This document shows positions 23,645 to 35,796 of a DNA stretch of 56,273 bases, piece after piece. The translations under genes were made by a program, and so were the position numbers. The DNA comes from Nitrosomonas sp. (GTDB lineage: Bacteria > Pseudomonadota > Gammaproteobacteria > Burkholderiales > Nitrosomonadaceae), in the NCBI GenBank assembly GCA_021774195.1, contig JAJFJJ010000119.1, positions 1 through 56,273 of the forward strand, in the 5' to 3' direction. Each line of letters opens with the position of its first letter. The first letter of the stretch is position 1. Below the pieces are notes generated by a model that had not been told where the DNA came from, did not search any database, and saw nothing but the letters and a program-made list of their open reading frames with translations.

Positions 23645-26600
23645 TCATTTCGTCAACTTCAACAGATCAAACACTACTTTAGCAAAACTTGCCGATTTTT
23701 CGGGGTTTGATAATAATTGCATCATCTGGTTTTGATGCGCATCACTACTATCCATGACAGCATCATCAACGGCTTTGATGAAATCACCCAACATGGCCTG
23801 TTCAGTTGTGTTGTTGGCAATTTGCTTCATCACCAATGCATTTTCACTGACTTTATCCCGAATGGTGTCGGCGTAATTCACTAAGTCTTTTTCCGTCAGA
23901 TGGTCGGTAATAAAGATCTCATTTAAACGGCTGATAATTTGCGAGAGGAACTCATCCTGTTTATCTTTGGGTCTTGCCGTTCCAAGTCCTTCACCGGGTT
24001 CAAGTTTATAGTCAGCCGAATCTTGTTTTAGTTTTAAGTCTTGTTGGCGAATGGCGGACAAACGGTAATGACTGAGCACCACGCTGTTTAAATCGATATC
24101 TTCCTCTTCCTCCACCAAGGCCTCACGCAACATGGGGCGCAGATTGCGTGCATACAGGCTGAGCTTTTCCAAGTCCTTGTCGTCATAATCGACGATTTGT
24201 GACATAAATTCATAGAAGCGCACAAAGGTGCCTAAATCTTTTTTGAAGATTTCCAAAGCATCCTTCTCTTTTTTGCAGTCCTTAAAGCTATTTTCTGCAT
24301 TAGCTATCAACACGGCATCAGCCGTTTTCTTGCTGCGCTCAAACATATCTTTGGCTTGACGATACGCTTCAATCGCTAATTGATAACGTTTCTGCCAACG
24401 CTCGACTGCCGGTTTGCAGATGTTCGCTATGGCGGCATTACTTTTACTTTTTACAAAGAAGGTATTACAAAACTGTTCAACCTCTTGCCCGGTAAAAATA
24501 TCCGCCGCACGTAGTTTATTGAAGAGATCGAAGATTAAATCCGGGTCGGATACATCGGCGAGCTCGGCGGTTTGATAGTAAGGCTGAAAGGCATTGAGGA
24601 TATCTTCTGGCTCATTGAAGAAATCCAATATAAACGTACCGGTTTCGGCCTTACCGGGGAAGGTTCGATTCAGCCGTGACAATGTTTGTACACATTCTAC
24701 GCCACCTAATTTTTTATCCACATACATGGCACAGAGTTTGGGTTGGTCAAAGCCGGTCTGGAATTTGTTGGCCACGATCATGACTTGGTAGTCGTCAGTA
24801 TCAAACGCTTTACGTAGGTCACGGCCTTTGAGATTGGGGTTCATGCTGCTCTCGGTAAATTTCTCCCCGACCAGTCCCGCAGTATTCGGGTCTTTGTCAC
24901 TAAATTCAACCTCACCCGAGAAGGCCACCATGGCATGAATTCTCTGATAACCTTTGACTGCAATATATCGATCAAACCCAAGCTTGTAGCGCACAGCTTC
25001 TTTGCGTGAACTGGTGACGACCATGGCCTTGGCTTGACCGCCTAACAGACCCATCACATTGGCTTTAAAATGCTCAATAATCACTTGTACCTTCTGCGAG
25101 ATATTGTAATCATGCAGCCGTACCCATTGGTTGAGCTTTACCTTGGCGCGTTTACTTTCAACTTCCTGGTCAGCACTTTGTATTTTCATCGCCAAGTTAT
25201 AGGCCACTTTATAGTTGGTGTAGTTCTTTAGCACATCCAGAATAAAACCTTCTTCGATGGCTTGGCGCATGCTATACACGTGATAGGCTTCGGGACGATT
25301 GGTTTTAGATGGTGCTTCATCCGGGTTGGGTAGACGACCAAACAACTCCAATGTTTTGGTTTTAGGGGTTGCGGTGAAAGCCAAGTAACTGACATTCTTG
25401 GAAGCACGACGCGAAGCGATGGCGGCATCCAAAATATCTTCGGTGGTCACTTCTTCGTCATCTCTGCCTTGCGCATCGATCATCAGCACTTCTTTTAATT
25501 GACGCGCTGTAGCGCCAGTTTGTGATGAGTGCGCCTCATCGGCAATAATCGCATAGCAACGTTCTTTCAAGCTGACACTGTTCTCAATGGCTTTTAATAC
25601 ATAAGGGAACGTCTGAATGGTGACAATAATGATGGGCTGTGAGTTTTCCAGGGCAGCGGCCAGTTTTTCAGATTTAGAACCATCACCTTCTTTGTTATTA
25701 ATGCGCCCCACGACACCGTCCACATGTTCAAACTGGTAAATGGTGTCTTGTAACTGATCATCCAATACCGTTCGGTCGGTGACGATAATCACTGAATCAA
25801 ATTGTTTGTGGCCAGCAGCATCGTAGAGTGACGACAACTGATGCGCAACCCAAGCGATGGAATTGGACTTACCCGAACCGGCACTGTGTTGAATCAAGTA
25901 TTTATGGCCGGGACCTTCAGTGCGAGCCGCCTCGATCAGTTTGTTGACCACATCCCATTGGTGATAGCGTGGGAAGATCAAGGTTTCTTTTTTGTACTTG
26001 CGTCCTTCCCAGTCTTCTTTTTCTTCAATCTGTAAATGCACAAAGCGGGCAAGAATGTTGAGTAGGTTGTCGGGTAATAATACCTCATTCCATAAGTAAT
26101 CGGTGGCGTATTGGTTTACATCCGACGGTACATCGTTACCCGCCGCACCTTCTGATGTACCTTTATTAAACGGCAAGAAGAACGTGTCATCGCCTTGCAA
26201 ACGCGTCGCCATATACACTTCATATTGACTCACAGCAAAATGTACCAGCGCCCCACGTTTGAAAGTTAGCAGCGGTTCTGGCTTCTTGGTAATAGGGTCA
26301 ACTGGAAGACGGGTAGTTTTGTATTGCTTGATGGCGTTAAATACCGCCTGTTTGAATTCTGATTTTAATTCTAATGTGGCCACCGGCAAGCCATTTACAA
26401 ACAACACCAAATCAATACGCCAGGCTTTGGCTTTAGCACCCGTCTCGGCCAAGTGTTCATCACTGGCCCAAGGGCTATACACCAGCTCTGGCACTACCCG
26501 GCAACGGTTCTTTTGATAACGCGCTAACGTCTCCGGGTTTAAATCATGTTCGGGCTTGAATTGGCACAAACTAAAGCGCGTACCCCGGTCACGTAGTTCA

Positions 26601-26896
26601 TGACGCAGCACCCCCAAGGTGCCGAAGGTGCGCATGGCTTTATTGGCGGCGTTGGGGTCAGCTTTGTTCAACTGGGTGGCGACTCGCTCTAGAAACTTTT
26701 GTTCGGGGTTGTTGGGGTAAAGGGCACAAAACTTTTGCCACTGAGTGTCTTGAGTTTCTTGCACAAAGCCCAGCAAGTCTTCGGGGTATAAGGCCAGCTC
26801 ACGGTTATAGTTTTCCGGTTTGCCTAATTGCCAACCATTAGCGACCAACTGACGAATCATATCGTTTTGAAACGTTAATTCATTTGCGTTACCCAT
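23645..26896 (-). CDS. hsdR: Type I restriction enzyme, HsdR (R) subunit
   Basis: The motor and nuclease subunit that translocates and cuts unmethylated DNA in complex with HsdM and HsdS. About 1083 residues. The nuclease core near the N-terminus has D162 and ELK at 176-178 (RIDLVLFVNGLPVATLELK). SF2 helicase motifs follow: HSAGSGKS (K343), DEAH at 453-456, FTATPK and the TGFDQPKLCAMYVDK / LSRLNRT motifs. The C-terminal helical HsdM-binding region is complete. ATG 26896 is given; TTG 26902, two codons earlier, has a better-spaced AGAGGG and may be used. Remnants of another hsdR flank this gene on both sides. Confidence 0.95.
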   Translation of the reverse strand: MGNANELTFQNDMIRQLVANGWQLGKPENYNRELALYPEDLLGFVQETQDTQWQKFCALYPNNPEQKFLERVATQLNKADPNAANKAMRTFGTLGVLRHELRDRGTRFSLCQFKPEHDLNPETLARYQKNRCRVVPELVYSPWASDEHLAETGAKAKAWRIDLVLFVNGLPVATLELKSEFKQAVFNAIKQYKTTRLPVDPITKKPEPLLTFKRGALVHFAVSQYEVYMATRLQGDDTFFLPFNKGTSEGAAGNDVPSDVNQYATDYLWNEVLLPDNLLNILARFVHLQIEEKEDWEGRKYKKETLIFPRYHQWDVVNKLIEAARTEGPGHKYLIQHSAGSGKSNSIAWVAHQLSSLYDAAGHKQFDSVIIVTDRTVLDDQLQDTIYQFEHVDGVVGRINNKEGDGSKSEKLAAALENSQPIIIVTIQTFPYVLKAIENSVSLKERCYAIIADEAHSSQTGATARQLKEVLMIDAQGRDDEEVTTEDILDAAIASRRASKNVSYLAFTATPKTKTLELFGRLPNPDEAPSKTNRPEAYHVYSMRQAIEEGFILDVLKNYTNYKVAYNLAMKIQSADQEVESKRAKVKLNQWVRLHDYNISQKVQVIIEHFKANVMGLLGGQAKAMVVTSSRKEAVRYKLGFDRYIAVKGYQRIHAMVAFSGEVEFSDKDPNTAGLVGEKFTESSMNPNLKGRDLRKAFDTDDYQVMIVANKFQTGFDQPKLCAMYVDKKLGGVECVQTLSRLNRTFPGKAETGTFILDFFNEPEDILNAFQPYYQTAELADVSDPDLIFDLFNKLRAADIFTGQEVEQFCNTFFVKSKSNAAIANICKPAVERWQKRYQLAIEAYRQAKDMFERSKKTADAVLIANAENSFKDCKKEKDALEIFKKDLGTFVRFYEFMSQIVDYDDKDLEKLSLYARNLRPMLREALVEEEEDIDLNSVVLSHYRLSAIRQQDLKLKQDSADYKLEPGEGLGTARPKDKQDEFLSQIISRLNEIFITDHLTEKDLVNYADTIRDKVSENALVMKQIANNTTEQAMLGDFIKAVDDAVMDSSDAHQNQMMQLLSNPEKSASFAKVVFDLLKLTK

Positions 26897-27107
26897 ACTC
26901 AAACCATCCCTCTAATTGCCAACCAGACGCTTATTCCAGTAACACACCAAAATAACCGCCCATACAGATAAAATGCATTGCACAGCTAGCCCGGACTGCT
27001 AAACGTTAAGCACCCCATCTTCCGGTTGAGATGAAATAAGATAATCCATAACAATCAATCTATTACCTTAATACGCATCCGAATGTAACAGGAATAATGA
27101 AATAAAA

Positions 27108-27332
27108 CTAAGCCCATGACGGGATATACCTCGCATATTTTCTGGAATCTGGTGCACTTGGATCATTCTTAACTAATCCTTGTTGAACGGCTTCAGAAAA
27201 GCCCAGCAAATCTTCAGGGTATAGCGCTAGTTCACGGTTGTAGTCTTCTGGTTTACCTAATAGCCAGCCATTGGCGATTAATTGACGAATCATATCGTTT
27301 TGGAACATCACTTCATTCGTCTTCTCAGTCAT
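27108..27332 (-). pseudogene. N-terminal remnant of a second hsdR
   Basis: The first about 45 residues (TEKTNEVMFQNDMIRQLIAN onward to ALYPEDLLGF) are about 35/40 identical to the start of the intact HsdR. After LGF the frame runs into unrelated sequence ending RKYARYIPSWA and a stop. The start ATG 27332 still has AAGG seven bases upstream, so this was the original start of an hsdR reading frame. Its likely 3' end is the fragment at 22138-22218. Confidence 0.8.
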
Positions 27333-27512
27333 TATGTGGCCTTTTTGCAACCTACTTCCATTAAAGTAAAGCATATCATTGACTTAATCACTGTTAGGAG
27401 CCATAATCTATTTATAAATGGACTGGGGGTGCCCGGTCGGCGTCTAGGCCTCGGTGAGTTTCATCGAGGCTTTTCGCTTTCTGGGAGTAGCAAGTCTGCC
27501 TTTGCACACTTC

Positions 27513-28274
27513 CTAAGGGAATCGCTTCAACCCCCAACCCTCGTAGTTACTGCCCACACATTTACGACCTCCTTGGCAATAAAACTTCGACTCCAGAACC
27601 GCAAAAGCACGATTATCTTGTTTAGGGCGCAATACATGTAAACCAACTGGACGGGCGATCAAGTCTGCCAACTGCAAACCAGTAGAATTGGTTTTTTTAT
27701 CAGCAAACTGAATAATAAAGGGCAGTGACTTGTTGAACCAGTTAGCCCCATCACATATTCGCCTAAACTCTAATTCCAACTCATCATCTTCCTTTTTGCC
27801 GCGTCGCTCGACCACAATATGCGTTTTCTTGCTATTTTGATTTTTCTCTAGTAAAAATCGATACACTCGCTCTAAACCAAATCCCAGCGCAAGGTGATAA
27901 GGATTACCCGGTGACTGATACTGATGGTTTAAACGTTCCTTTTCGATGACACAAGACACCAAGACAAAGTTGCTCTGATCTATAATCACCGTAAGTTGAT
28001 CGATAAAATCAACACGTTCCTGACGACTTTCAAAGATATTAAAGGGCGACTTTTCCTTGCGGATTTCATTTTCGTGCAAAACCACCAGATCATGTCCAAA
28101 ATGCTGAAACTTAAACGCCTGTAATTTGGGCGCAACTACATTGGTATAGTGCGGCTTATGAAATATGCAAAACGCCAATACAAATACAGGGTAATTGGGA
28201 TCGAGGTTTTGTAAACCATGATCACCGCTTTCATCCACGTAGACAATAAAATCACTAAATTTGTCTATCATCAC
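27513..28274 (-). CDS. DUF3800 domain protein in the restriction island
   Basis: A 253-residue protein with the DUF3800 start IVYVDESGDHG (D14, E15), a VLHENEIRKEKSPFNIF segment and a C-terminal QFADKKTNSTGLQLADLIARPVG, the conserved Asp-rich motif of this family. DUF3800 proteins are predicted to have an RNase-H-like fold and are often seen in restriction-modification and other mobile islands; no activity is established to my knowledge. Located between hsdS and the hsdR remnant on the same strand and probably part of the RM transcript. Confidence 0.8.
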   Translation of the reverse strand: MMIDKFSDFIVYVDESGDHGLQNLDPNYPVFVLAFCIFHKPHYTNVVAPKLQAFKFQHFGHDLVVLHENEIRKEKSPFNIFESRQERVDFIDQLTVIIDQSNFVLVSCVIEKERLNHQYQSPGNPYHLALGFGLERVYRFLLEKNQNSKKTHIVVERRGKKEDDELELEFRRICDGANWFNKSLPFIIQFADKKTNSTGLQLADLIARPVGLHVLRPKQDNRAFAVLESKFYCQGGRKCVGSNYEGWGLKRFP

Positions 28275-28348: not shown

Positions 28349-29752
28349 TCATGCTGCGGCTTCCTTGTTGACTTGGTTTTGCTCTGGGGCTTGCCAGTCT
28401 CGAACATCAATTTTACCGGTGACGGCGGCGGAGATTAGTGCTGTACGGCGTTCTTTTGATAAATTTATTTGCTCTTCGGCAAATCCAATAAGCTTGGAAA
28501 ACTTTTCCAACTGCTCATCTATATATGAAGCAATTTCAATCTGATCTTTTCCAGCCGGTTGAATAATCCAAAGCTCACGAATATCTTCCAAACTAAGTTG
28601 AATCTTTGTTCCACCATAACCTGAACCGATAAACTGCTCTTTAGCAAGATCAGACAAAATAAAATAGCCTAACCACCTTGAGGATTCTACATTCCCATTT
28701 GCCCGACAAAGTGCTACATGCTGACTAACATATCCACCTCCTATTTTATCATTCGCCACACATACTGAGCCGAGATCCGCTGTGATTGAAATTAATAAAT
28801 CGCCTTTATTGATTTTTGATCGCTCGCCTTCACTACCAGATGGAGGCCTCACCTTTTGAGTTGATTCCATCTTCGGCTCAATTGTATCTCTTGTTAAATT
28901 TGCAATTCTAAAGAATAGTGATCCTTCATCAGAATAATGCTCGGCCCAGCCTCTTGAACCGCTAGTCACAAAATCAAATAGAAACTTAGCTCTAGTAACA
29001 ACCCAATGCGCCGGCACCTCCCCCAACCATTCAACCCCCGAATCACGCATAGCGACATCAGGATTTAAACCTTTGGTCACGGCATGGCTAATGACGGCCT
29101 GACGCTTTTCTTTGAGCAGTTTGATGAGCTGTTGTTGTTTTTCGATCAGGGTGTCGATTTTGGCCGTTTCGTGGTCGAGGAAATCGAGAATGTTTTCTTG
29201 TTCATCAATGCTCGGCAAAGGAAGTTGTAACGCTTTAATTATGCTTGAGTTCAGACCATGCATAATCGAGCCTTTACCTGAGACTTTTATCTGATTCTCT
29301 ATTTCATGACACTCATCAATCAGCAATCTAAAAAACCGTGGCAAGATTTTATCTTTTTTAACTCTTAAACGTATCAGGTGTGAGTCAATAATTCCTGGCT
29401 CAAAATTTTCTGGAACAAGTTCACACTTACCACTTGTTCCCATCATCGTTATAAGAAGGTCATTAGGAAAAATCTTGTATACCTGCATTTCGGTATATTT
29501 ATCTTCACTAATTCTTCGTTTGCCTAATGTAAAATCTCTTTTTATAACATTCTCTTGGCCGTACACGTTGAAGCCTGACTCAACCATATTCTCAAGTTTC
29601 AACGCACTACCAAACGGCCCAATTTTTATTCCTTCAGCTCCGTCTTTTAGTAGATACCTTACCTGCTTGGTACTCCAGCAAGATGGGATATCTCCCAGCA
29701 TTTCAACATTTGAATCTATATATTCAGCATACGCCCGATACTTATTTCCCAT
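28349..29752 (-). CDS. hsdS: Type I restriction-modification specificity subunit HsdS
   Basis: Chooses the bipartite DNA target for HsdM and HsdR. There are two target-recognition domains, each introduced by the usual W-x-x-x-x-x-x-W type motif: SNVEMLGDIPSCW at the N-terminus and SGVEWLGEVPAHW near residue 245. Long helical spacers follow each (DEQENILDFLDHETAKIDTLIEKQQQLI, then ASYIDEQLEKFSKLIGFAEEQI). ATG 29752 is preferred to the one seven codons earlier (29773), which lies within the repeat that abuts this gene; GGAG is upstream. Separation from hsdM by a GIY-YIG ORF and two repeats is abnormal for hsdMS. Confidence 0.93.
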   Translation of the reverse strand: MGNKYRAYAEYIDSNVEMLGDIPSCWSTKQVRYLLKDGAEGIKIGPFGSALKLENMVESGFNVYGQENVIKRDFTLGKRRISEDKYTEMQVYKIFPNDLLITMMGTSGKCELVPENFEPGIIDSHLIRLRVKKDKILPRFFRLLIDECHEIENQIKVSGKGSIMHGLNSSIIKALQLPLPSIDEQENILDFLDHETAKIDTLIEKQQQLIKLLKEKRQAVISHAVTKGLNPDVAMRDSGVEWLGEVPAHWVVTRAKFLFDFVTSGSRGWAEHYSDEGSLFFRIANLTRDTIEPKMESTQKVRPPSGSEGERSKINKGDLLISITADLGSVCVANDKIGGGYVSQHVALCRANGNVESSRWLGYFILSDLAKEQFIGSGYGGTKIQLSLEDIRELWIIQPAGKDQIEIASYIDEQLEKFSKLIGFAEEQINLSKERRTALISAAVTGKIDVRDWQAPEQNQVNKEAAA

Positions 29753-29759
29753 AAAACGC

Positions 29760-29920
29760 CCCCACTCCGTCATTCCCGCAAGCTTCTAGCGGGAATCCAG
29801 TTTTGACGCTAATTTCTCTGTAATGAAGCTGCGTGAATGACTGGTTGTTGGGTTGTGGATTCCTGCTAGAACTTGTCCTCGAATGTTCTAATCGGGGAAC
29901 ACGCAGGAATGACGGTGGGG
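29760..29920. repeat. CCGTCATTCC inverted-repeat element, copy 1 (downstream of GIY-YIG)
   Basis: Starts CCCCACTCCGTCATTCCCGC and ends GCAGGAATGACGGTGGGG. Internal GCGGGAATCC and GGATTCCTGC form a second pair. This is the widespread proteobacterial GTCATTCC/GGAATGAC repeat type. The right 58 or so bases reappear in inverted orientation at 30303-30365. Confidence 0.8.
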
Positions 29921-29977
29921 TATGAGGGAATGGCTGCGTTATTAATGAAAATAGTTTTGGAATACAACTGTCTGTGG

Positions 29978-30268
29978 TCATAAAATCTCCTCCCACAAAT
30001 CTCGCCACTGTGGATTGGCCTTTTCTATCAGGCTGATTTTCCAGTCTCGTTTCCATTTTTTTATTTGTTTCTCGCGAGTGATTGCTGATGCCATCTCTTC
30101 ATGTTGCTCATAATAAACCAAAATATTCACGTTGTATTTTTCTGTAAAACCAGCGACCTGTTTGTTTTTGTGCTGCCAAATTCGCTGAATAAGATCACTT
30201 GTAACACCGATGTAGAGGGTTCCATTCTTTTTGCTTGCCAGGATGTAGACACAGGGTTGTTTTGTCAT
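29978..30268 (-). CDS. Single-domain GIY-YIG nuclease
   Basis: A 96-residue protein made of one GIY-YIG domain: VYILASKKNGTLYIGVTSD has the V-Y-I...Y-I-G pair, followed by R at LIQRIWQHK, YEQHEEMASAITREKQIKKW with the catalytic-type Glu, and the WRDLWEEIL end. It belongs to the small UvrC-N-terminus-like (COG2827-type) group, present in many proteobacterial genomes with no settled function. It sits between hsdM and hsdS, and both sides carry inverted copies of one repeat element. No strong ribosome site. I infer a selfish cassette rather than a restriction subunit. Confidence 0.88.
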   Translation of the reverse strand: MTKQPCVYILASKKNGTLYIGVTSDLIQRIWQHKNKQVAGFTEKYNVNILVYYEQHEEMASAITREKQIKKWKRDWKISLIEKANPQWRDLWEEIL

Positions 30269-30302
30269 GATTTCGCTCTGTGAATTTTAGTGTACATCTC
30301 TA

Positions 30303-30452
30303 CCCTCCGTCATTCCTGCGTATTCCCGATTAGAACATTCGAGGACAAGTTTAAGCAGGAATCCATTACTGACGATACGATCCGACTGTGGCAAGGTCAT
30401 ATATTATTGTGTTGTGGATTCCTGCTAGAAGCACGCAGGAATGACAGGGGGG
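30303..30452. repeat. CCGTCATTCC inverted-repeat element, copy 2 (upstream of GIY-YIG)
   Basis: Begins CCCTCCGTCATTCCTGCG and ends CGCAGGAATGACAGGGGGG. It shares ATTAGAACATTCGAGGACAA with copy 1 in reverse orientation. It ends five bases from the hsdM stop codon and starts 35 bases ahead of the GIY-YIG ATG. Confidence 0.8.
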
Positions 30453-30457
30453 AGACA

Positions 30458-32803
30458 TCACGAATGTACTTCTTGCAGCAAAGCCATAATCTCGGCACTC
30501 ACCTTATCCAAATCCGCATCAATTTCAGCCAAATCTCTCGGCGGTTGATACTGATAAAAATGTCGGTTAAATGGAATCTCGTAACCGACAATGCCGATCT
30601 CCTGATCCTTATCATCTTTCTTACTAGCGTCTATCCAGGCATCGGGCACATGGGGCTGCACTTCTTTGCGGAAGTAGGCTTCATTAATGGCGTTAACAGT
30701 TTGTGAGGGATCAAGGGCAACGTTCTCATTGTCACGCAGCTCTGTGTCGGCCTGGTATTCGATGACCTGGCCACCCACAGCAAACAAGCCATATAGTGGA
30801 TTGGCTTTGCCCTTGTGGATTTTCTTGATGACTTTTTCGGCGTCCGGGTTCTTCCAACTCACGACGGCTTTAACCAGCTTTTTCTCTTTGGCGTCCAGGC
30901 TAAGTGCTGCGTTTTTACAGGCGGCGGTGATAACAGCGTCATAGCCGTTCATGTCATCATGTTGCGCGGTGCCGATAGTGTGTTGCAGTTGTCTGGCCTT
31001 GACTAACAGGCTTTTCTGCTCTAACCAGGTTTTACGATCCAGCAGGTCTTTGATCTGTTTTTCTTTGAGTTGGCTAAAGTGGGCTTTGATATGCTTACGA
31101 ATCGTATCTTCATGCGTGGTTAAGTCGCCGTATAACTCACAATCAGGCGCATCCGACCACCCGCTTACGTTGTCATCCGCGCTTGCTGCGCCATATTCGG
31201 CATAGACCCACTGCATGGCCGCATTTAAAACGCCGGTGGTAAAACGCAAGGTGTGCAAGCGTTCATCACTGAATTGATAGGATTCGCGCAATGGGCGCTC
31301 GACAGTGATACGTCGATAGCCAAACGCATAGGTGTTAAAGATCTTGCTGGCAAAGGTCTTGGGTGTTTCCGTCTTGGGGTTTTCTGACTGACGGCCACGA
31401 TTGCTTTTTTGTTCGGAGGGTTTGCCCAGTTCATGCGCCTCAACCACTTCAAAATCACCAAAGGTGCGAGTAACCGTGGCAATGTCACCATCTTCCATCA
31501 CGTTGCGTTTAGAGCCTAATGACTTGCGCATTTTGCTGCATAAATTAACGCCGTTGATCAACTGCACTTTGCCTTTGCGCCCTGCGGTCTTTTTATTCGA
31601 GAGCACCCACACATAGGTGGCAATACCGGTGTTGTAGAACATGTCGGTAGGCAATGCGACGATGGCTTCTAGCAAGTCGGCCTCTAGAATGTAACGGCGA
31701 ATCTCTGACTCACCCGAACCGGCACCCCCAGTAAACAACGGTGAACCATTAAGAATGATGCCAATTCGTGCGCCACCTTCAGCAGTGTCGCGCAACTTAC
31801 TGATTAAGTGCAGCAGGAATAACAACGAGCCGTCAGACACCCGTGGCAAGCCGGGGCCAAAACGACCATCAAAACCTTTAAGCGTGTTCTCATCTTTGAT
31901 GGTTTGCTCGATTTTTTTCCAGTCCACACCAAATGGTGGGTTAGATAGCATGTAATCAAATTTGTCGGCATACAGTTGATCGTTCGACAAGGTGTTACCG
32001 AGTTTGATATTTTTGACTTCTTGCCCTTTGATCAACATATCGGCTTTGCAAATGGCATAACTCTCGGGATTAAGCTCTTGCCCATAACCGCGCATCACCG
32101 CTTGTGGGTTTAACTCATATACATATTCCATGCCTGCAGAAAGAAAGCCGCCGGTGCCTGCGGTGGGATCATAGATGGTGCGGATAATGCCCGGCTTGGT
32201 CAGCGCGTCATTGTCTTCCATAAAGACTAACGACGTGGTGAGGCGCACGATATCACGCGGGGTAAAGTGTTCACCGGCGGTATCATTTGAGCTTTCTGCA
32301 AAGCGGCGGATCAGTTCTTCAAACACCAACCCCATGTCGTGGTTAGAAATCGCCTTAGGGCTTAAATCGGTCTGTCGAACCTTCTGTACGATCTTATAGA
32401 GCAGGTTGGCGTCATTCAACTCACCTATAAAATCAGCAAACTTAAAATGCTCAAAGATCTCACGTGCATCTTTAGAAAATCCTTGAATGTACGATTCCAA
32501 ATTAGCAGCAATACCCGCTTCACCGAGTTTGGAGAGATCCATTTTTGAAATATTGAAAAACGACAAACCGTTGGTCGCCCGTAACAGCAGTTTCTCCTGC
32601 GCTTCTTCCGGTAGGTTCATCCGTTGCACTTTTTCAATCTCAGCCAGTACGGCTTCTTTGCTGTCTTCTAACACCCCTTCAAGGCGACGTAATAAAGTGA
32701 ATGGCAAGATGATGCGGCCATACTGGCTTTGCTTGAAGTCACCCCGCAGTAAGTCGGCTAATGACCAAATATAGGCAGCTAGGTTGTTGGTGTTTTGTGT
32801 CAT
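30458..32803 (-). CDS. hsdM: Type I restriction-modification methyltransferase HsdM
   Basis: N6-adenine methyltransferase subunit. The HsdM N-terminal domain ([20 protein letters not shown]) precedes the SAM motif [13 protein letters not shown] and the catalytic NPPF at 288-291. At 781 residues it is much longer than classical HsdM (about 490-530). The extra C-terminal 250-300 residues contain a charged linker (residues about 455-475) and helices ending in [21 protein letters not shown], a coiled coil. This long form occurs in a known subset of type I systems. First gene of the island; the transcript would run through the GIY-YIG cassette to hsdS. Confidence 0.94.
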
Positions 32804-33004: not shown

Positions 33005-33403
33005 ATGAAAACAATATCAACAAAATTATTAGTGGTTGTGTCAATCAGCTTCATCTTAGCAATTCCTGCCGTAGCGCATGCGGATAGAGATCATCACAGG
33101 TATGATCGTTCTCATCATTACGACAGACACGATTATGCTTATTCACAACGCCACCATTACAAGAACAAGAAAAAGCACCATAAGCGTAAGCATGGCCACA
33201 AGCATTCTCATCGGCATAATTATGGTGGGTATAATCGCGGCTATAATCAACCGCCTCGATATTTCGACAACTACCCACAGCCGCTTCACAATCATCGAAG
33301 CAGTTATAATCGAGTAACCTATCCGGCACCTGTATATGGTTATCCACCCAATGTGACGCTTGGCGTTAATACCGGGAATGCCAGCTTTATGTTACGCTAT
33401 TAA
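33005..33403 (+). CDS. His/Tyr-rich secreted protein
   Basis: A 132-residue protein with a signal peptide (MKTISTKLLVVVSISFILAIPAVAHA). The next 60 residues are extremely rich in His, Arg, Lys and Tyr (RDHHRYDRSHHYDRHDYAYS, later KKKHHKRKHGHKHSHRH). The end is Pro/Tyr-rich with PVYGYPPNVTLGVNTG. GGAGG lies eight bases before ATG. Such clusters can bind metals (Ni, Zn, Cu) or anionic polymers; no family is recognised. It precedes the PepSY-phoPQ genes on the same strand, so a role in envelope or metal stress is possible. Confidence 0.75.
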   Translation: MKTISTKLLVVVSISFILAIPAVAHADRDHHRYDRSHHYDRHDYAYSQRHHYKNKKKHHKRKHGHKHSHRHNYGGYNRGYNQPPRYFDNYPQPLHNHRSSYNRVTYPAPVYGYPPNVTLGVNTGNASFMLRY

Positions 33404-33474
33404 GTTGAAAATACCGGTGACAGCAACAAGTCACTGGTTTCCACTTGGTATTTATTGCATAAGGCCTGTTTTTC

Positions 33475-33750
33475 ATGAATAAATTGAGAAAAATTGTATT
33501 AGGAATCGCCTTGTTGATGTGCATGGGTTCGTTAGCCATAGCGGACCAAAACAACAACGTTTTAAAGCCCCAACAAAACAAAATTTCTCAACAAAAAGCG
33601 GTTAATATCGCGCAAAAAAAATTCAAAGGCCGCGTTCTGGCGATTCACCATACGGATAACGCCTATCGGGTTAAAATTTTAAGTGCCCCTGGTTCTGTCC
33701 ATATCGTGCTAGTCAATGACACAGACGGGTCCATTATTTCAGCCCGCTAA
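33475..33750 (+). CDS. PepSY domain periplasmic protein
   Basis: 91 residues: signal peptide to about residue 23 (MGSLAIA-DQ), then a single PepSY domain (KISQQKAVNIAQKKFKGRVLAIHH..YRVKILSAPGSVHIVLVNDTDGSIISAR). PepSY proteins are thought to act as inhibitors or modulators at the cell surface and often precede PhoP/PhoQ-type systems in proteobacteria. It ends 25 bases before phoP, so it is likely in the same operon and may modulate the sensor kinase; this is inference. Confidence 0.85.
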   Translation: MNKLRKIVLGIALLMCMGSLAIADQNNNVLKPQQNKISQQKAVNIAQKKFKGRVLAIHHTDNAYRVKILSAPGSVHIVLVNDTDGSIISAR

Positions 33751-33775
33751 CCGTTCTTAATTCAACTTATTTGCA

Positions 33776-34462
33776 ATGCGTATTCTTGTTATCGAAGATG
33801 AAATATTGCTACTGGCACAAATTCGCCAAAACCTGGAGTCCGATGGTTATATGGTTGATACCTGTAGCGATGGTGAAGAAGGGGTGTTTTTTGCCAATGA
33901 ATATCCACTGGACGCGGCAATTATTGATATTGGATTACCCGGGATCTCCGGGTTGGATGTCATTAAAACGCTACGTGAGCAGGGCAACCGGCTGCCCATA
34001 CTGATTCTGACCGCTCGTGACAGCTGGCAAGATAAAGTAAAAGGTTTGGAAATTGGTGCTGACGATTATCTTGCCAAACCGTTTCAAATGGAAGAGTTAC
34101 AAGCCAGAGTCAAGGCGTTACTTCGTCGCGCAACCGGCATTCCCAGTTCATTGTTAGTATGCGGACCGATCTCAATTGATGTTTCCACCCATTCTGTCAC
34201 AGTTGATGACAACAAAATCGACCTCACCACCTTTGAATATCGGTTGTTGGAACAATTAGTTCGCCACCAGGGTGAGGTGCTTTCTAAACAAAAATTAACA
34301 GATTACCTTTATCCACATGATGAAGATCGTGACAGTAATGTGTTAGAAGTCATGGTCGGTCGATTGCGTCGCAAGCTTGACCCAAAGGGTGAACTTACCC
34401 CGATAGAAACACTGCGCGGCCGAGGCTATCGCTTTACTTTAAAATGCAACGACACCGAATGA
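33776..34462 (+). CDS. phoP: PhoP-type response regulator
   Basis: A 228-residue OmpR-family regulator. Receiver domain: MRILVIEDE, phospho-acceptor D51 in AAIIDIGLPG, the LTARDSWQDKV switch (very like PhoP) and the DDYLAKPF lysine. Linker, then a winged-helix DNA-binding domain (TTFEYRLLEQLVRHQGEVLSKQKL, VMVGRLRRKL, ETLRGRGYRF). The stop overlaps the kinase start. PhoP systems respond to low divalent cations, antimicrobial peptides or acid in enterics; the stimulus here is unknown. Confidence 0.88.
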   Translation: MRILVIEDEILLLAQIRQNLESDGYMVDTCSDGEEGVFFANEYPLDAAIIDIGLPGISGLDVIKTLREQGNRLPILILTARDSWQDKVKGLEIGADDYLAKPFQMEELQARVKALLRRATGIPSSLLVCGPISIDVSTHSVTVDDNKIDLTTFEYRLLEQLVRHQGEVLSKQKLTDYLYPHDEDRDSNVLEVMVGRLRRKLDPKGELTPIETLRGRGYRFTLKCNDTE

Positions 34463-35796
34463 TGTCCTTAAACAAGCGCATTCTTTTGAGTGCGACATTG
34501 GTGTTGCTGATCTTTATTGTCGGTATTGCCGTCACATTGGATCGTGCATTTTATGACAGCGCACGTTTAGGGGTTGAGGATCGTATGTTGGCAAGGTTGC
34601 TGATGCTAATGGGCGATGCTGAAGTTGATGAAACCGGTATTCTTTATATGCCGACTAATATACTAGACACCGAATTCAGTCGCCCTGACTCTGCTACTTA
34701 TGGCTACATTGTCGATCATACAAAAACAATCGCCTGGAAGTCCACTTCAGCCTTAAACAAAACCATTCCATCACCTTACTTGCTTGAAAAAGGTTCAAAG
34801 CAATTCGATCAGATAACAATCAATCAAGAAACTTTCTTTGCCTATAGTTTTGGCGTCGCCTGGGCCACCGAGTCAGGCAGTTATCCGCTCACTTTCAACG
34901 TCATTACCGACACCGAACTTTTTGATGCACAAATAGAACGCTATCGGGAAGACCTGTGGGGTTGGTTGAGCATTATGGCGTTATTGTTGCTGATTACGCA
35001 AATGCTGGTTTTACGATGGGGGCTGCAACCATTGCGCCAAGTCTCCACTGAATTATTTGCGATAGAATCCGGTCAACAAGACAATGTAAAGGGGATTTAT
35101 CCCAGTGAATTAAAGTTGCTAACGGATAGTATTAATTCGTTAATTAATCATGAACGCAAACAGCAAAAACGCTATCGAAATGGGCTGGCGGATTTAGCGC
35201 ACAGTTTAAAAACACCGTTGGCTGTTTTACAAGGTGCCGCCATAACGAAAGAAAACGAGCGGGTTAAGCTCAAAACCATCCATGAACAAATTGAGCGCAT
35301 GGACAATATTATCCAATATCAATTACGGCGTGCGGCGACTGCCGGAAGTTCGCCGGGCATGCGTCTGATCAGGCTCCGCCCAATTACCGATAGAATTGTT
35401 TCTGCCGTTGAAAAGGCCTATCACGACAAACACCCAAATATTGTCATTCAAGTTAATGAGGACATCAACCTTCGCATTGATGAAGGCGACCTAATGGAGT
35501 TATTAGGCAACCTAGTGGATAACGCATTTAAATGGTGTCGACACGTTATCATCATCTCAGCAAAAAATGAGGCGGATCAGATCATGATGCAAATTAGCGA
35601 TGACGGGCCAGGTATTCAACAAAATGAAATTTCTAGAATCTTAGAACGTGGCGTTCGTGCGGATCAATCCACACCCGGACACGGCATTGGGTTGGCCATT
35701 GTGCGCGACATCATTCAAGTGTATGGCGGCGAATTATTAATTGATCAAAATAATCCGCATGGCGCACGTATTACGATCAGACTAAACAACAAATAA
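34459..35796 (+). CDS. phoQ: PhoQ-type sensor histidine kinase
   Basis: About 445 residues. One helix near the N-terminus, a periplasmic sensor of about 140 residues, a second helix (LSIMALLLLITQMLVLRW), HAMP, then the dimerisation domain with LAHSLKTPLAVLQ (phospho-His at about 248), which matches PhoQ rather than a generic kinase. N-box DNAFKW, DDGPGI and GHGIGLAI complete the ATPase. ATG 34459 is chosen because it overlaps the phoP stop as ATGA; the frame is open 15 bases earlier. The acidic patch that binds Mg2+ in enteric PhoQ is not evident. Confidence 0.85.
   Translation: MMSLNKRILLSATLVLLIFIVGIAVTLDRAFYDSARLGVEDRMLARLLMLMGDAEVDETGILYMPTNILDTEFSRPDSATYGYIVDHTKTIAWKSTSALNKTIPSPYLLEKGSKQFDQITINQETFFAYSFGVAWATESGSYPLTFNVITDTELFDAQIERYREDLWGWLSIMALLLLITQMLVLRWGLQPLRQVSTELFAIESGQQDNVKGIYPSELKLLTDSINSLINHERKQQKRYRNGLADLAHSLKTPLAVLQGAAITKENERVKLKTIHEQIERMDNIIQYQLRRAATAGSSPGMRLIRLRPITDRIVSAVEKAYHDKHPNIVIQVNEDINLRIDEGDLMELLGNLVDNAFKWCRHVIIISAKNEADQIMMQISDDGPGIQQNEISRILERGVRADQSTPGHGIGLAIVRDIIQVYGGELLIDQNNPHGARITIRLNNK

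Follow-up and report, generated by a model that had tools for sequence, protein, structure and literature searches.

The window, by which we mean the whole analysed stretch of 56,273 nucleotides of Nitrosomonas sp. DNA, contains the genes of a type I restriction-modification system, in which a small gene for a GIY-YIG nuclease separates hsdM from hsdS, all three genes lying on the minus strand. The arrangement had originally been predicted as a GIY-YIG gene that is bracketed by inverted repeats and splits hsdM from hsdS, and it was confirmed by ORF, Pfam and inverted-repeat evidence. The features are as follows.

23645..26902, minus strand: hsdR, type I restriction subunit (Pfam HSDR_N, ResIII, SWI2_SNF2)
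27513..28274, minus strand: DUF3800 gene, between hsdS and hsdR (Pfam)
28349..29752, minus strand: hsdS, specificity subunit (Pfam Methylase_S)
29762..30452, unstranded: whole cassette, array, gene and array between the outer inverted arms (inverted-repeat search)
29978..30268, minus strand: GIY-YIG nuclease gene, Ssn-like, 96 aa (ORF and Pfam PF01541, 63.7 bits)
30458..32803, minus strand: hsdM, type I methyltransferase subunit, 781 aa (Pfam N6_Mtase and HsdM_N)

The cassette measures roughly 690 bp. The residues Y8, Y19, R29 and E66 of the nuclease, which we take to be the catalytic residues of a GIY-YIG enzyme, were found to be invariant when 25 close homologues were aligned. The ORF of hsdS (28349–29773) begins at 29773, which is within the repeat, and its preferred ATG start at 29752 was set by comparison with the congeners G020, G064, G065 and G089.

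The nuclease gene is flanked by four hairpin units, which form two mutually inverted arrays, one on each side of the gene, with two units apiece.

30415..30445, minus strand: REP unit 1, outer, hsdM side; TGTC tag, 8-bp stem ATTCCTGC, 9-nt loop, CCA tail
30309..30365, plus strand: REP unit 2, inner, hsdM side; CGTC tag, 8-bp stem, 35-nt loop, CCA tail
29856..29913, minus strand: REP unit 3, inner, hsdS side; CGTC tag, 8-bp stem, 36-nt loop, CCA tail
29769..29799, plus strand: REP unit 4, outer, hsdS side; CGTC tag, 8-bp stem ATTCCCGC, 9-nt loop, CCA tail

Each unit, or the reverse complement of it, has the form GTC - ATTCCYGC - loop - GCRGGAAT - CCA. The two units of an array face opposite ways, so that the pairs are inverted with the tags pointing outward, and unit 3 is an inverted copy of unit 2. 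The inner inverted arms (29856–29896 and 30325–30365) are 95% complementary over 41 nt and continue as 29895–29919 and 30303–30327 with 92% over 25 nt, and the outer inverted pair (29762–29799 and 30415–30452) is 82% complementary over 38 nt. Two inverted copies of about 58 bases had been described in the original prediction; the near-identical inner arms are indeed present, whereas the division into four units, two per array, and the outer pair had gone unmentioned. The nuclease gene start (30268) lies 34 bases from the repeat edge at 30303 and its stop (29978) 58 bases from the edge at 29919; the edge at 30452 is 5 bases from the hsdM stop (30458) and that at 29760 is 7 bases from the preferred hsdS ATG (29752). 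Of the distances given earlier for these intervals (35, 57, 5 and 8), the third stood and the others were each corrected by one base. Insertion sequences and MITEs have terminal inverted repeats together with a target-site duplication. The insert is bordered by inverted ends, and ATG is found at both ends, though it is possibly a selected start codon.

The repeats are concentrated at this locus. The motif GTCATTCCNGC has four copies in the window, all of them here, against 0.09 expected, and none of 100 shuffled sequences reached four. The whole 2.97-Mb assembly contains nine copies (four for the backward control), and no matching hairpin was seen by eye around the other five. When the assembly was searched with the gapped hairpin pattern (loops of 4–34 nt), only the two short-loop units of the locus and one further unit at C41:8985-9009 were obtained. 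At the latter place there is a REP pair without the gene, which belongs to a different stem class (ATCCCCGC). Furthermore, the two arrays were folded as single-stranded DNA and gave z scores of −5.5 and −5.6, which were not equalled by any of 200 shuffles in either case. Contig C31 of the window's own genome (L084, G000:C31) has two near-identical stretches of about 75 bp, around 1042 and 2101, which contain GTCATTCCCGCC and form no hairpin.

The units resemble a known class of repeats. Di Nocera et al. (2013; PMC3733652) divided REPs into GTAG- and CGTC-tagged superfamilies. As given there, the CGTC REPs have a CGTC, TGTC or CCTC tag, a stem of 8–9 bp starting from AT, loops of 4–5 nt with variants and an unpaired CCA tail, occur in many dispersed copies in which head-to-head dimers predominate, and include the dRS3 element of Neisseria (PMC3733652). 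The window units agree with this description in their tags (three CGTC and one TGTC, all unpaired), in the 8-bp ATTCCYGC stem and CCA tail of all four units and in their pairing in opposite orientation. They differ in having loops of 9, 9, 35 and 36 nt rather than 4–5 nt, and in their low copy number in the window genome, where the short-loop pattern occurs twice here and once elsewhere. In view of the misfit in loop length and copy number, we termed the window units CGTC-REP-like. The same study states that CGTC REPs “apparently lack a dedicated transposase” (PMC3733652), whereas the window units flank a nuclease gene. Our own literature search, which covered part of the longer sets of results, found no link between GIY-YIG genes and CGTC REPs.

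The generality of this association was investigated in 199 entries for loci of the nuclease family, comprising 80 named loci, 30 from the window's taxonomic family and 89 from 299 Pseudomonadota genomes. These entries represent 195 distinct loci, as four repeat a named locus. The 60 further loci and the 40 controls were chosen by hand from among the matches listed, the controls being loci with a weak match to the family protein (at most 52 bits) that were taken as UPF0213/YhbQ-like. A strict unit was defined as GTC, a stem whose first base is A, a loop, a complementary arm whose last base is T, and CCA, with the stem sequence left free. Within 250 bp of the gene, such a unit was present at 142 of 199 family loci, at 0 of 40 distant GIY-YIG controls and in 53 of 1717 background windows. 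A looser unit (stem of at least 7 bp, GTC foot) was present at 179/199 family loci, 9/40 controls and 322/1717 background windows, and even this was absent at 20 of the 199. The enrichment of repeats near such genes, which had been proposed as a check, was therefore found to be far above chance and above the level at distant GIY-YIG genes. The loosest definition (stem of at least 6 bp, GTC within six bases) matched 198/199 loci and was dropped because controls (20/40) and background windows (732/1103) matched it often too. The small UPF0213/YhbQ-like GIY-YIG proteins, with a solved relative in 1zg2, are like the window protein in fold family and size; they are set apart by the strict unit, which occurs at none of the 40 weaker matches presumed to be of this kind.

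The motif could also be recovered without being preset. An octamer count over 79 loci ranked GTCATTCC first upstream of the gene (48 loci) and its complement GGAATGAC first downstream (47 loci), and one of these octamers lies within 400 bp of the gene at 70 of the 80 named loci, where it is 24-fold denser than elsewhere in the loci. At the loci without GTCATTCC, other stems stand on the same feet, e.g., GTCATCC...GGATCCAG, GTCATTGC...GCAATCCAG and GTCATACTGGC...GCCAGTATCCAG, and for that reason GTCATTCC was rejected as the defining motif and the hairpin definitions were used instead. Among the 64 possible triplets at the hairpin foot, GTC was the most enriched, with 300/396 flanks, 210/2428 background stretches and 8/80 control flanks. 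Of 514 units across loci, 397 have C before GTC and 78 have T. The repeat type had earlier been described by its sequence; repeats do flank the family, and they are not GTCATTCC alone but any hairpin with a GTC foot, usually with CCA opposite. The 71 named loci with an assigned phylum span 11 phyla. Matches were also obtained in 11 phage records, all below 60% identity, and the one examined in detail was without GTCATTCC. As the gene and the hairpins are found together in many bacteria, the nuclease becomes a candidate partner enzyme of a widespread family of repeats for which none was known.

The stems are conserved as stems. Of the 231 GTCATTCC-class units of 110 loci (80 named and 30 of the family), 220 have a Watson-Crick pair at the stem position adjoining ATTCC, in the form of C-G, G-C or T-A, whereas 119 would be expected from the make-up of the columns; pairing has therefore been conserved under sequence change. 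The usual loop spacing was found in 165 of 231 units outside the window. Where a unit is present on both sides of the gene (124 of the 199 loci), the 9-nt stem arm is identical on both sides at 92 loci, and between loci the arms match in 15.5%. Several genomes carry differently stemmed nuclease genes side by side, and in the ten genomes with at least two such loci the arms matched in 19/23 comparisons within a locus and in 12/32 between loci.

Stem and protein diverge together. A Mantel test of protein against stem identity gave r = 0.464 for 169 of the 199 loci and r = 0.261 for 76 named loci alone, and in both cases none of 1000 permutations reached the observed value. Part of this correlation may be due to shared descent, as host kinship is still in the data. 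When stem class was mapped on a tree of 157 proteins having one of ten stem classes (4 of the 199, with in-frame stops, being left out), it needed 47 changes, against a mean of 55.6 and a least of 52 in 200 shuffles. This signal is real but weak, and the Mantel test was therefore relied upon. The tree fits phylum little, although to some extent (20 changes against 23.7, least 22 of 200; 71 loci, 11 phyla). The natural reading of these patterns would be that every protein reads its own stem.

Orthologous junctions were compared for the presence of the insert. The hsdM orthologues of congeners are 80–84% identical to that of the window, and the hsdM–hsdS junction was compared in five of the six genomes with hsdM at least 80% identical, G066, in which the gene is split, being left out. 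In congener G020 (hsdM 80% identical) the two genes overlap as TGATG with nothing between them. An empty site had been sought in the original prediction, which held that hsdM and hsdS are normally adjacent, and this one congener bears out both points. The same junction in G064, G065 and G089 holds a REP array of like kind without a nuclease gene. In G089 the gene is present at another place, and no nuclease-gene match was obtained for G064 and G065 among the matches listed. In G009 (L124) the junction is occupied by another insert, which measures about 125 bp and lacks GTCATTCC. The insertion between the translationally coupled hsdM and hsdS appears to be tolerated because the hsdS start is kept beyond the insert.

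A second such site was found in Azospirillum lipoferum 4B. Here sufB and sufC are separated by 617 bp, and the space between them holds the nuclease gene, flanked on either side by a REP pair. The gap is 91, 87 and 129 bp, with no such gene, in A. ramasamyi, A. oryzae and strain B510, respectively, and these three relatives are 95–96.5% identical to A. lipoferum in the matched parts. No clear target-site duplication was seen at the hsdM–hsdS or sufB–sufC sites, where the cassette edges are not base-exact. The locus L090 was also tried as an empty-site test and was rejected, as the gene at this site is common to eight congeners, which looks like ordinary inheritance rather than movement, and the sequence at the site differs in relatives that lack the gene. 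Pieces of a GIY-YIG gene lie at the site shared with L090 in two genomes (G046:C4, about 60908–61114, and G088:C172/C175), which suggests decay in place.

When the gene and the repeats were counted in the 299 Pseudomonadota genomes, at least two CGTC-1-type units were present in 37 of the 75 genomes that have the gene and in 28 of the 224 that do not (odds ratio 6.8, p = 3e-10, ignoring kinship), the gene-positive genomes being 75 of the 96 with any match. In the window's taxonomic family, many repeats occur with no detected gene in G055 (128), G108 (60) and G028 (23), some of the high-repeat assemblies being incomplete, and G056 has 46 repeats with only a weak gene match. In the phylum sample, G161 (153), G288 (116), G177 (48) and G279 (47) have many repeats and no strong gene match. 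The gene is therefore not needed for the repeats to persist. In the window's genus, the genome-wide repeat count had a median of 12 with the gene and 10 without it (p = 0.03), with equal means; as a sign of gene activity it was rejected, its effect being almost nil. The window's own genome has few dispersed units.

The gene and its cognate hairpins form a unit, and orthologous junctions differ in whether they hold this unit or its repeats. We consider it probable that the locus as a whole represents a cassette, inserted between hsdM and hsdS, of an Ssn-like GIY-YIG nuclease gene and the REP-type hairpins cognate to it. From the agreement of stems and proteins, the nuclease probably acts on its own hairpin, and it would do so by binding or cutting the cognate hairpin or a single strand bearing it, as is said of the Neisseria Ssn. 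Cleavage, together with repair or uptake of single-stranded DNA, might then spread the repeats and the gene. The interpretation originally given, a small selfish cassette in which the nuclease may cut and spread the repeat hairpin, is partly supported as a whole. The repeat family has been described already and so, reportedly, has the nuclease family.

The likeness to the logic of RAYTs and REPs, which had also been suggested, is apt because each gene has its own matching hairpins. RAYTs with their REPs or REPINs (Bertels & Rainey, 2011; PMC3116915) similarly consist of a gene between paired hairpins of its own class, with doublets elsewhere that are without the gene. They differ in that the RAYT is a tyrosine (HUH/Y1) transposase of IS200/IS605 type, whereas the only Pfam match of the window protein is GIY-YIG. 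To our knowledge, no transposition intermediate is known for this GIY-YIG protein. The nuclease gene may nevertheless stand to the CGTC-tagged REPs as RAYTs stand to the GTAG-tagged ones. We tentatively propose that the dedicated enzymes which the CGTC REPs seemed to lack are the nucleases of this family, and that such a nuclease spreads the hairpins and its own gene, each reading its own stem; this could well be so, though we would stop short of calling it probable.

A different role is suggested by the Neisseria nuclease. Chenal, Veyrier and colleagues (Nature Communications, 2025) reportedly described Ssn as a GIY-YIG family of site-specific single-stranded nucleases, with thousands of homologues that are said to differ in target specificity. 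The Neisseria Ssn reportedly cuts single-stranded DNA at its repeat, and Ssn/NTS interactions are said to modulate natural transformation. The window protein is 65% identical over 93 aa to its N. gonorrhoeae homologue, which we take to be the characterised Ssn, and in both cases a repeat is next to the gene, as four flanking hairpin units in the window. The gonococcal homologue lies amid 16 matches in 5.3 kb to the dRS3 pattern, which was taken from PMC3898611. The record holding it (NZ_CP119140.1, L278, 2.17 Mb) is filed as a plasmid and is chromosome-like in size, as is a record of Aeromonas caviae (NZ_AP026896.1, L279, 4.94 Mb).

The nuclease might thus police DNA entry, cutting incoming single-stranded DNA at the repeat and tuning natural transformation, with the flanking units as its targets and perhaps as its own regulatory site. 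This possibility deserves serious weight, although we are inclined to doubt it. The reports on Ssn/NTS, the dRS3-rich surroundings of the 65%-identical homologue and the position of units near the gene start in many loci are all in keeping with it. As the window genome has few dispersed units, however, a genome-wide role in transformation is hard to see there, and the units without the gene as well as the empty sites call for a spreading process too.

It is unlikely that the gene is a passive passenger, with the REPs spread by another enzyme and the gene moving by homologous recombination between intergenic repeats. Inverted arrays would suit such recombination and the repeats are present in genomes without the gene, but the strict unit is found at none of the 40 control GIY-YIG genes, and the stem agrees between the flanks of a locus and follows the protein sequence. 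We regard it as very unlikely that the protein is a classical homing endonuclease that copies its gene into a fixed target site, as the GIY-YIG domain and the existence of an empty site might suggest; the gene occurs at many unrelated sites (hsdM–hsdS, sufB–sufC, gltA–lpxB and others), lies here outside any intron or intein, and has as its best NCBIfam match a group I intron endonuclease at 18.7 bits against a cut-off of 56.05. That the gene is a functional part of the restriction-modification operon, e.g., an accessory nuclease, is scarcely credible even though it is flanked by hsdM and hsdS and shares their strand, since none of the five congeners compared has it at the junction and its neighbourhoods elsewhere are unrelated.

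The preferred reading, in which the Ssn-like gene and its cognate hairpins make up one unit, bears on a general question. REPs rank among the commonest bacterial repeats. One of their two large superfamilies was without an enzyme as of 2013, according to Di Nocera et al. (PMC3733652). A nuclease gene with its own matching hairpins in several phyla makes the question of this enzyme directly testable by biochemistry, and the genomes with several differently stemmed genes provide built-in controls for stem specificity. If the proposal is true, it would add a second, independently invented bacterial system of REP plus enzyme, based on a nuclease and not on a tyrosine transposase. Should the Ssn work already cover the repeat association, the present analysis would still add the link with CGTC REPs, the test for co-divergence and the empty sites.

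Two further features of the window were noted. An 88-aa ORF at 27108–27374 on the minus strand resembles the HsdR N-terminus, with which it has the stretch FQNDMIRQL...NRELALYPEDLLGF in common, and has no Pfam match; it is probably a partial hsdR duplicate. On the plus strand at 33005–35796, a histidine-rich protein and a small protein, both secreted-looking, were recognised by eye in a row with an apparent two-component system.
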